The notes under the pieces: generated by a model
Told to the model about the DNA's origin: nothing
Seen by the model: only the letters and a program-made list of their open reading frames with translations
The model's database searches: none
Source: Campylobacteraceae bacterium
GTDB taxonomy: Bacteria > Campylobacterota > Campylobacteria > Campylobacterales > Sulfurovaceae
NCBI GenBank assembly: GCA_027056485.1
Contig: JALUKQ010000143.1
Location: 13,778-52,638 of the forward strand
Direction: 5' to 3'
Length of the DNA: 38,861 bases
Translations under genes and position numbers: made by a program
Part shown: positions 2,072 through 20,223 of the stretch, in pieces
Layout: each line of letters begins with the position of its first letter
How positions within the stretch are numbered: position 1 is the stretch's first letter

Positions 2072-3862
2072 ATGAAAAAGCTTATTCTCTTATCTATCCT
2101 CTTCTCTACACTTCTTTTAGCCGATGGTAGAGCATTGGTAGTAAAATCATTCTATACCAATGAAGATATAAATATAAGCACGATAGATAGATATGCGTCT
2201 AAATTTAAGATAAGAACACAAGATGAGGAGGATGTAGAGTTTGAAATTGTCCTTTTTGATAGTGAAGAGGACTCTACTCTAAAACAGAACAATACCAAAA
2301 AATACACATGGTTTATGTTAGAGTTTGATGATAATCTTACAAGTGGGAACTACTGGGTTGAGCATACCAATTTTGAGTTTACTAAACACACCTTTACACC
2401 TCAACAATCAGTAGATAATTTTTCACTCTTAGGACGGAGGTTTTTCTCATTTACCTATGATAGCTCAAGAGATGCTAGACGATATTTTTTAAAAGCAATT
2501 CCCAAACAATCACACGTTGTCGCACAAGCAACGCTCTACACCCCACAAAGTTTCTCAACATGGGCAGATAGCTATGGTCTAAAACTACTGCTTTACTTTT
2601 TTCTCTTTGGGGTTATCTTTATGACAGCTATCTATAATGGGGCATTGTATCTTTATAATCGTGAAAAATCATTTCTTTACTATATGTTGATGCAGATTTT
2701 TATGGTGGGTGTTTTGATATACCAAACTGATATTATTCAAATTTACGTCATGGGCAATGTAGAAGATGAAGAGATAGCTATCTTCTTCTATTTTATTCTT
2801 GTGGAGGTAGCGATTATTTTTATACTCTACTTTATACGTGCATTTTTAGAAACCAAAAAATATCTATCTTTTCATGATAAGATTTTACACTACATTACTC
2901 TTTTTGCTTGGGTCGATTTGGTACTCTTTTTTGTGCCTATTATGCTGATACTACAGATATATAGTTTTGTAATACTCTATGTGGTTGTTGTAGCGTGGCT
3001 TCGTTTTAGACAAGGCTATAGACCAGCACTTTTTTTCCTCTTTGGTTGGTCGGCACTAATGGTTGGGGTGTTTATTTCAGATTTTTTTTCTGAAAACTTT
3101 TTGCCTATTGATTCTCTTGTCATTGGCTCGACCATTGAAGCACTATTTTTAGCGATTGCTATCTCCTATAAGATGCGAGAGATTAGAGATGAGAAAGAGG
3201 AGCAAAAAGAGCTTTTAGTTCACCAAAGCAAACTCGCCTCTATGGGTGAGATGTTAGGAAACATCGCCCACCAATGGAGACAACCCCTTACACGTATGGG
3301 CTACATACTCATGAACATAGAGTCCAAAGACAAAGAGGAGCGTCACAGTAAAAAACTAGAAGAGGCATCCCTGCAACTGGAGTTTATGTCTCAAACGATT
3401 GATGACTTTAGAGACTTCTATAGACCCAAAAAAGAGAAAGAGTCTTTTGATTTGGTAGAAGAGACCCAAAAGGTCATTGCTCTACTAAATCTAAATGAGA
3501 TTGAAGTTGAACTAAAAGCCAAAGAGGAGATAACGATTGTCAACTATAAAAATGAGTACAAACAGGTGATACTAAACCTTTTAGTCAATGCAAAAGATGT
3601 ACTGTTACAACGAGCCATATCCTCCCCTAAAATCACCATAGAGATAAACCAAGAGTACCTTAGCATCAGTGATAATGCAGGAGGCATAGAGCTTGACAAT
3701 ATTCAAAAGGTATTTGAGCCATATTTTAGTACAAAAAGAGATGGACTAGGTATTGGGCTTTATATGTCTAAGACTATTATTGAAAAAAATATGGGAGGGA
3801 AGATAGAGGTTGAAAACAGTGAACAAGGTGCACTATTTAGGTTTTTATTTACAAAAAACTAA
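2072..3862 (+). CDS. 7TM-DISM type sensor histidine kinase
   Basis: This 596-aa membrane sensor kinase starts at ATG 2072, because MKKLILLSILFSTLLLADG is a good signal peptide; a TTG at 2054 would add six residues and spoil it. Residues about 20-165 form a periplasmic 7TMR-DISMED2-like beta domain, followed by about seven membrane segments (roughly 175-375), a short coiled linker, and a HisKA-type H-box with H400 (GNIAHQWRQPLTRMG). The HATPase domain shows an N-box (NLLVNAKD), G1 (DNAGGI) and G2 (GLGIGLYMSK). The HQWRQPL H-box is common in Campylobacterota kinases. It should autophosphorylate and pass phosphate to the regulator encoded upstream. The ligand is unknown; DISMED2 domains are thought to bind carbohydrates or similar ligands. 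Confidence 0.92.
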   Translation: MKKLILLSILFSTLLLADGRALVVKSFYTNEDINISTIDRYASKFKIRTQDEEDVEFEIVLFDSEEDSTLKQNNTKKYTWFMLEFDDNLTSGNYWVEHTNFEFTKHTFTPQQSVDNFSLLGRRFFSFTYDSSRDARRYFLKAIPKQSHVVAQATLYTPQSFSTWADSYGLKLLLYFFLFGVIFMTAIYNGALYLYNREKSFLYYMLMQIFMVGVLIYQTDIIQIYVMGNVEDEEIAIFFYFILVEVAIIFILYFIRAFLETKKYLSFHDKILHYITLFAWVDLVLFFVPIMLILQIYSFVILYVVVVAWLRFRQGYRPALFFLFGWSALMVGVFISDFFSENFLPIDSLVIGSTIEALFLAIAISYKMREIRDEKEEQKELLVHQSKLASMGEMLGNIAHQWRQPLTRMGYILMNIESKDKEERHSKKLEEASLQLEFMSQTIDDFRDFYRPKKEKESFDLVEETQKVIALLNLNEIEVELKAKEEITIVNYKNEYKQVILNLLVNAKDVLLQRAISSPKITIEINQEYLSISDNAGGIELDNIQKVFEPYFSTKRDGLGIGLYMSKTIIEKNMGGKIEVENSEQGALFRFLFTKN

Positions 3863-10720: not shown

Positions 10721-10805
10721 TGGTGCGTCAGAGAGGATTTGAACCTCCACACCCGTAGGGCACTACCCCCTCAAGGTAGCGTGTCTACCGTTCCACCACT
10801 GACGC
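10721..10805 (-). tRNA. tRNA-Leu (anticodon GAG)
   Basis: On the minus strand the acceptor GCGTCAG pairs with CTGACGC, followed by discriminator A and an encoded CCA. The D-arm is GTGGAACGGTAGACAC. The anticodon stem CTACC/GGTAG encloses loop TTGAGGG, giving anticodon GAG. A long variable arm (GTGCCCTACGGGTGT) marks a class II leucine tRNA, and the T-arm is GGAGG-TTCAAAT-CCTCT. It reads CUC/CUU codons. Confidence 0.95.
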
Positions 10806-18558: not shown

Positions 18559-19830
18559 CTATAGAGCTTGATAAGCGATATCTGTTCTACAGTGCTTTCC
18601 AGCAAAATGAACTTGACCTACCAACATATAAGCACGTTGCTGTGCTTCTTTAATAGTGTCACCCAAACCTACACAAACCAGTACTCGACCACCTGTTGCA
18701 TAAAGTTCACCATCTTCACCACGGCTAACTCCTGCGTAAGAGATATGTGCATGCTCTTTAAAAATATCATCATGAACAATATCATCTACAATAATCTGAG
18801 CAGGAGCAGAACTCTTATAAGGGTAATCTTTAGATGCCATAACCACACCTACTGCAAACTTGTCATGAAATTCAACTTCTAAATTTTTAAGGTCGTTGGT
18901 TGCACCTTTATAGAACAAATCAAGAGCCGAAGACTTAAGCAAAGGCATTATCTCCTCACACTCAGGGTCACCAAAACGTACATTGTACTCTAAGATAATT
19001 GGCTCATCATTGACAACCATAACACCAATAAACAATACCCCTTTAAACGGCATACCTTCACTCTTCATTCCCTCTAAAGTAGGAACAATAACACGCTCAT
19101 CTAACTTTTTGTAAATCGCATCATTTACCAAAGGTGTCGGAGCGTAAGCACCCATTCCACCTGTGTTTGGTCCTTGGTCGTCATTGTACAGTCTTTTATG
19201 GTCTTGTGCAGCAGGTAACACCACATAATCTTCACCATCACAAATAGCAAAAACAGAAAGCTCATAACCATCTAAGAACTCTTCTACCACTATAGAAGTT
19301 CCTGCATCACCAAATGAATTTCCTGAAAGCATCTCACCTGCAGCCTTTTTTGCTTCATTATGATTTTGGGCAATAATCACCCCTTTACCACCACAGAGAC
19401 CATCTGCCTTAACCACGATAGGTGCTTCAAGAGTCATAATAAACTTATACGCATCTTCTAAAGAGTCTGTCTCTATATATTTTGCTGTTGGAACATTGTG
19501 ACGAGCTAAAAAATTTTTCATAAAAATTTTAGAACCTTCAAGCTGTGCAGCCTGAGCAGATGGTCCAAATATTTTTAAACCACGCTCTTCAAACAGGTCA
19601 ACAATCCCAGCAACCAAAGGGGCTTCTGGTCCTACTATTGTAAGTTCTACATCATTGGCTTCACAAAAATCAGCCAATTCATTAAAGTCAGAAATCTCTA
19701 AATTTGTACCCAATTCATCTGTAGCACCATTTCCTGGAGCAAAATATAACTTCTCTACTTTTTCATCTTTAGCAAGAGCCATCCCTATAGAATACTCACG
19801 CCCACCAGCACCGATTATTAATACATTCAC
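18559..19830 (-). CDS. purD: phosphoribosylamine-glycine ligase (GAR synthetase)
   Basis: This enzyme joins glycine to 5-phosphoribosylamine in purine synthesis. The start is GTG 19830 (protein MNVLIIGAGGREYSIG), nine bases after GGAG; the longer frame from ATG 19863 would add eleven unconserved residues. The 423-aa product is standard for PurD: N-domain GPEAPLVAGIVD, ATP-grasp VVKADGLCGGKGV, the signature GPNTGGMGAYAP and LEYNVRFGDPE, and a C-domain with GRVLVCVGLG. A 6S-like RNA lies immediately upstream on the same strand. Confidence 0.95.
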   Translation of the reverse strand: MNVLIIGAGGREYSIGMALAKDEKVEKLYFAPGNGATDELGTNLEISDFNELADFCEANDVELTIVGPEAPLVAGIVDLFEERGLKIFGPSAQAAQLEGSKIFMKNFLARHNVPTAKYIETDSLEDAYKFIMTLEAPIVVKADGLCGGKGVIIAQNHNEAKKAAGEMLSGNSFGDAGTSIVVEEFLDGYELSVFAICDGEDYVVLPAAQDHKRLYNDDQGPNTGGMGAYAPTPLVNDAIYKKLDERVIVPTLEGMKSEGMPFKGVLFIGVMVVNDEPIILEYNVRFGDPECEEIMPLLKSSALDLFYKGATNDLKNLEVEFHDKFAVGVVMASKDYPYKSSAPAQIIVDDIVHDDIFKEHAHISYAGVSRGEDGELYATGGRVLVCVGLGDTIKEAQQRAYMLVGQVHFAGKHCRTDIAYQAL

Positions 19831-19999
19831 TACAACACACTCCATTTTTATAATTGACGACATTATACACTATTAACCATAAGGGATAAAATAAAGTAAG
19901 TCTTTTATAAAAAAGATGTATTTTATATAGAGTAATTAAATTTTAAATTGATAGTTACAATTGATAAAATAAAAAGGAGCTAGTGACGTGAGCTGTCTG

Positions 20000-20210
20000 C
20001 TGAAGACAATATTTATATAAGCCCCCGAACAGCCGTTCTGCATAAAATCGGCCCTAAAAAGCCAACGGTGCAGGAGAGAGAAAACCCTTAGGGGACAACT
20101 TCTCGTCTAGCTATGCTAGACTCAAACGAAGTCACCCTCACACAGATTTACTACATGTCCCACAAAAGATAATGTTGGACCACATATAACAGTAGTCGAA
20201 CTATTCAGGT
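20000..20210 (-). ncRNA. ssrS: 6S-like RNA upstream of purD (purD-motif RNA)
   Basis: A non-coding, highly structured stretch transcribed towards purD from a perfect TATAAT (20218-20223), with the predicted 5' end near 20210. CUGAA at the 5' end (20208-20204) pairs with UUCAG at the 3' side (20004-20000), and UUAUAUG with UAUAUAA further in. A long terminal hairpin contains GUCUAGC-AUA-GCUAGAC nested in GGGUGACUUC/GAAGUUGUCC, and the 3' side carries a second hairpin (CUGCA...UGCAG enclosing GUUGGC/GCCGAU). A long rod with an internal bubble plus this location fits the epsilonproteobacterial 6S RNA, described first as a purD-associated motif. 6S RNA binds sigma70 RNA polymerase. Ends are approximate. 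Confidence 0.68.
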
Positions 20211-20217
20211 TAAGTGG

Positions 20218-20223
20218 ATTATA
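20218..20223 (-). promoter_or_regulatory. -10 box of the 6S-like RNA
   Basis: Minus-strand TATAAT in TTTGGTATAATCCACTT, with phased T-rich segments upstream. The predicted start matches the beginning of the closing stem. Confidence 0.65.

Follow-up and report, generated by a model that had tools for sequence, protein, structure and literature searches.

A very probable 6S RNA gene next to purD in an uncultured Sulfurovum-like member of the Campylobacterota

The locus that precedes purD in the window, i.e. the whole stretch of 38,861 nucleotides of contig JALUKQ010000143.1 (assembly GCA_027056485.1) that was analysed, is almost certainly the 6S RNA gene of an uncultured Sulfurovum-like bacterium of the phylum Campylobacterota, with a sigma70-type promoter, a rod-shaped product, and purD as a neighbour rather than a target. 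This identification is supported by the structure of the RNA, its covariation, its position and its spread in the phylum, together with published work on Campylobacter. The coordinates of the features are collected in Table 1.

Table 1. Features of the probable 6S locus and of purD, in window coordinates (position 1 is the first nucleotide of the window).
Feature	Coordinates	Strand	Basis or remark
Very probable 6S RNA gene	about 20216..20018	minus	R1 model and RF00013; both ends approximate
Rfam purD RNA motif RF01069, which spans the apical arm and the 3' portion of the 6S RNA	20154..20023	minus	covariance match
Putative -10 box of the 6S gene, TATAAT	20223..20218	minus	sequence context TTTGGTATAATCC
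Closing stem, 5' strand	20209..20197	minus	12-pair helix with covariation
Closing stem, 3' strand	20024..20035	minus	12-pair helix with covariation
Central bubble, 5' strand, 44 nt, contains GGUCCAACA	20196..20153	minus	alignment consensus
Central bubble, 3' side, 43 nt, includes a small hairpin	20078..20036	minus	alignment consensus
Small hairpin on the 3' side of the bubble	20049..20064	minus	consensus pairs
Apical arm and terminal hairpin	20152..20079	minus	consensus pairs
Candidate -10 box of purD's own promoter, TATAAT	19867..19862	minus	37 nt ahead of the purD start
purD, phosphoribosylamine--glycine ligase, GTG start	18559..19830	minus	TIGR00877 497.8 bits, cut-off 288; three GARS domains

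The Rfam purD RNA motif, RF01069, was found in the window as a full-length match of 92.7 bits, far above the cut-off of 41 (E 7.1e-17 for the whole window), and this was its single match in the window's own genome (187 contigs, estimated completeness 87%); the next gene on the minus strand is purD. A 6S-like RNA upstream of purD had been proposed in an earlier, sequence-only reading of the same DNA, which named a covariance search as the check, and the search bears the proposal out through RF01069, with a sub-threshold match to RF00013, the Rfam 6S model; the absence of any match to 6S or purD models, given there as a refuting outcome, was thus not observed. The latter match, at 20214-20018, covers all 187 model positions and scores 21.3 bits against a cut-off of 46.4. 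The features had been placed at 20000-20210, and they are indeed present there, but the true span is shifted by a few bases, running from approximately 20216 to 20018 on the minus strand. Precisely this span (20216-20018) was matched with 171.9 bits by a covariance model that we built from 47 aligned loci, hereafter R1, the window being itself one of its 47 training rows.

Among 121 Campylobacterota genomes, RF00013 did not reach its cut-off in a single one, and the only match at E <= 1 (genome G044, 14.7 bits) was at the same place as a sub-threshold RF01069 match (26.6 bits) with purD downstream. In the 14 control genomes the same model gave matches in five, four of them above the cut-off. 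That RF00013 stays below its gathering score in the window counts against the 6S reading; as this is so in all 121 genomes of the phylum, the model does not cover the Campylobacterota branch, and its gathering score was treated here as a tool threshold rather than as a biological property. Of 298 Campylobacterota genomes, 282 gave an RF01069 match at E <= 0.001, which in 271 exceeded the cut-off; none of 14 controls gave one. Within the window's family it was present in 159 of 175 genomes, and in 88 of the 90 with a completeness of 90% or more and a contamination of 5% or less. R1 recovered the RNA in 15 of the 16 genomes without an RF01069 match (E between 7.6e-21 and 2.9e-6); G044, which is among these 15, had belonged to the R1 training set. 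By either RF01069 or R1, the RNA is present in 297 of the 298 genomes, the only genome matched by neither model being G174.

The consensus structure was obtained from an alignment of 47 full-length loci, composed of the window, 40 loci, L072, and five of 30 further RF01069 loci; the row of L072 is shortened and retains little of the closing stem's 5' strand. RNAalifold assigned 38 pairs to this alignment, and at 28 of them at least one sequence was changed on both sides with pairing kept. The closing stem, all 12 pairs of which are standard in the window, was paired in 98.4% of 555 cells and showed two-sided changes at 7 of its 12 pairs (71 cells). Its percentage of pairing, its number of two-sided cells and its covariation score were reached in 0 of 500 shuffles, while 11 of 500 equalled the number of two-sided pairs and 23 of 500 the number of pair types. 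When the partner of the stem was slid by 1 to 3 columns, pairing fell to 31.1-49.0%; the tested structure was derived from the same 47-locus alignment, which gives it an advantage over its slid versions. These results agree with the closing stem, large bubble and terminal hairpin that had been read from the letters: the helix covaries over the 47 loci, the bubble lies between the closing stem and the apical arm in the consensus, and the hairpin is found at the tip of that arm.

The fold energy of the 197-nt window RNA corresponds to z = -3.28, and 1 of 200 dinucleotide shuffles was as low. Folded singly, the window sequence has a minimum-energy structure in which the closing stem is retained, with a mean pair probability of 0.85, and the bubble is occupied by small hairpins that are absent from the alignment consensus; that no open bubble appears in this structure counts against a 6S RNA. 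In the covarying closing stem, the 5' strand is located approximately 55 nt upstream of the start of RF01069 and thus outside the Rfam model. RF01069, an entry of 125 model positions that Rfam types as Cis-reg, is shorter than the window RNA, in which both strands of the closing stem are included.

A strong promoter ahead of the RNA was also part of the sequence-only reading, and this claim is upheld by the TATAAT at 20223-20218, a box that occurs at the same place across related loci. The hexamer was left unlisted by a promoter consensus scan because that scan also demands a -35 hexamer. Counted at 55-82 nt ahead of the purD motif, TATAAT was present in 68 of the 72 loci of the first set; in eleven control intervals of equal length, 0 to 3 of the 72 loci had it. 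To judge from sequence, the 6S gene has its own housekeeping promoter and, being kept in some loci where no purD is near, is free-standing. In the second set, which consists of 64 loci of the window's family, TATAAT was at the usual distance in 42, and over both sets together it was missing from that distance in 26 of 136 loci.

The 22 second-set loci without the usual box are of several kinds. Two of them carry TATACT at the usual distance. In ten (L077, L082, L085, L095, L111, L115, L118, L127, L132 and L133) TATAAT is found further upstream, with a hairpin between the box and the closing stem. The box-to-closing-stem distance is 24-36 nt in these ten loci versus 6-9 nt in 97 of 111 others, the sequence of the hairpin varies across four genera, and an equally good fold is reached by 0 to 16 of 300 simple shuffles; such loci would represent a 6S RNA with an additional 5' hairpin. 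A further ten, all of genus g3 (L078, L084, L086, L089 and L102-L107), have an A+T-rich leader instead, and L033 of the first set belongs with them. All of these g3 loci except L107 have a TGNTATAAT box that precedes the closing stem of 6S by 63-92 nt, and no TATAAT was found in the 161 nt of upstream sequence of L107. The leader arrangement of genus g3 would require 5' processing or another promoter.

On its other side, the probable 6S gene of the window is preceded by a hemD-like gene (PF02602, 98.1 bits). A tRNA gene was seen elsewhere in the window (10724-10805, minus strand, RF00005, 52.1 bits). PurD was compared with 37 relatives in named genomes, close ones only, from which the window's own genome was possibly left out, and the nearest were metagenome assemblies labelled Campylobacteraceae or Sulfurovum. 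Linkage of the RNA to purD was counted over 136 loci, one per genome (72 of the first set and 64 of the second). In 125 of them, as in C. jejuni, purD lies downstream on the same strand; the sequence-only reading had likewise taken this location to fit the phylum. Of the other 11, four have a contig end 133 to 315 nt past the motif and were set aside, i.e. not counted as unlinked, and seven have no purD across 1500 or 2000 nt downstream.

The prevailing order of the two genes, the Cis-reg type given by Rfam, and, in 30 loci of a genus (g16) that is presumably Campylobacter, a motif-to-purD distance of only 14-26 nt would all suit a cis-acting leader of purD, such as a purine-sensing riboswitch. 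A purine riboswitch is what a shorter form of the C. jejuni RNA was earlier proposed to be, and a cis-acting element is what Rfam still takes the motif for; according to excerpts of PMC3847290, the riboswitch reading was later replaced by 6S. The motif is, moreover, merely part of a longer RNA with a covarying closing stem, and the seven unlinked loci keep that RNA above the RF01069 cut-off with at least 1500 nt free of purD behind it. Five of these genomes (G208, G315, G318, G427 and G439) have purD on a different contig; in the other two, G310 and G314, it is on the same strand, 3.7 and 4.1 kb downstream. The same dissociation is seen among the 15 loci found with R1, of which 11 have purD within 1500 nt and four do not; these four are all of family f4, so that 4 of 4 loci seen in this family are without it. 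Persistence of the RNA without a nearby purD is expected for a free-standing 6S RNA and not for a cis-acting purD element. Chiefly on the indirect evidence of the unlinked loci, we rejected the cis-acting leader, which we regard as extremely improbable. The RNA need not act on purD in cis, and purD is probably best described, from the comparison of these loci, as a conserved neighbour.

The unlinked loci have some features of their own. Open reading frames are located between 6S and purD in G310 and G314 (loci L102 and L086, respectively), as if genes had been inserted. In G427 and G439, both of the window's genus, the longest open stretches after 6S run in the opposite direction. As for the promoter, L038 alone has TATAAT at the usual distance, five of the seven have it further upstream, and L107 has none, which speaks against too simple an account of these loci.

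A 6S RNA might also be the main transcript that feeds purD, in which case purD expression would require transcription to continue beyond the 3' end of 6S. In line with this, a simple terminator scan between 6S and purD gave no terminator-like site, and shuffled sequence folds as well as the segment behind the 6S RNA; without such a site some read-through can take place, and it is possible that it adds to purD expression in the window. The 14-26 nt spacer of the 30 g16 loci likewise leaves no room for a purD promoter outside the 6S gene. The window differs from these loci in having 192 nt from the end of the motif to purD and, within this spacer, a separate TATAAT box 37 nt before the start codon. 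In the window's genus TANAAT is found at -50 to -27 of purD in 23 of the 26 loci with purD downstream, against 7 of 99 loci of other genera and 11% of shuffled sequence, this being a pattern count only. Because of the 192-nt spacer and the box in 23 of 26 loci, a dependence of purD on 6S read-through, which the sequence-only reading had considered, is unlikely in the window's genus to judge from sequence, and the explanation by which 6S would be the main transcript for purD is, in our opinion, improbable.

A 6S RNA with purD as its neighbour can be compared with known systems, 6S across bacteria having reportedly been surveyed by Wehner et al. in 2014. R1 was used to scan, with filters off, 6 kb around the canonical ssrS gene of E. 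coli, and its best match was located at 2982-3167, the annotated gene being at 2984-3166; the match was weak (14.4 bits, rough E 0.00076), the next one scoring 8.3 bits. In general layout, and in GUUCG and CGGC where the closing stem meets the bubble, the E. coli gene and RF00013 resemble the window RNA. They differ from it in the low scores obtained in both directions (14.4 and 21.3 bits), and the neighbours of ssrS, zapA and fau, are different from those of the window 6S gene.

Closer to the window stands C. jejuni, for which excerpts of PMC3847290 report the RNA upstream of purD as a 6S RNA of 185 nt with a 13-nt antisense pRNA, and say that the same region of H. pylori carries 6S. To the extent of these excerpts, the C. 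jejuni and window RNAs have in common the position upstream of purD, the strand, a sigma70-type -10 box and the length class, as well as the closing stem, the bubble and the terminal loops. The excerpts also report that C. jejuni 6S is not growth-phase regulated, so its role may differ from that of E. coli 6S. A literature search for 6S and Sulfurovum returned the Campylobacter paper (PMC3847290) only, and a search for the phrase 'purD RNA motif' returned no paper.

From these comparisons, a mechanism may be suggested for the window RNA. An RNA of approximately 200 nt would be transcribed from its own sigma70-type promoter. Its rod-like fold, in which a large central bubble separates the closing stem from the apical arm, is shown by the comparative alignment. 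By analogy with E. coli and Campylobacter, the rod would mimic an open promoter and bind the housekeeping RNA polymerase holoenzyme, from which it would be released when the bubble serves the polymerase as template for a short pRNA. The purD gene would not be a target, given that the RNA is kept in relatives with purD elsewhere and that a promoter-like box precedes purD in the window's genus. The window RNA is, as far as its sequence can tell, the ordinary 6S RNA of the phylum, a regulator of RNA polymerase of approximately 200 bases that is usually located ahead of purD.

These findings support reading the purD motif that Rfam classifies as Cis-reg as the 6S RNA of Campylobacterota, and the annotation of an uncultured genome gains its 6S gene. 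Relatives in which 6S and purD are parted would provide a simple natural control for the dependence of purD on 6S transcription. There is also a small evolutionary point, namely that the link of 6S to purD changes within the phylum. Whether 6S and purD have moved, in the course of this change, between an arrangement that leaves almost no space for a second promoter, with read-through from 6S possibly supplying purD, and independence, through a -10 box of purD itself in the window's genus or through separation of the two genes in some relatives, is a question on which we hold the balance to be even.
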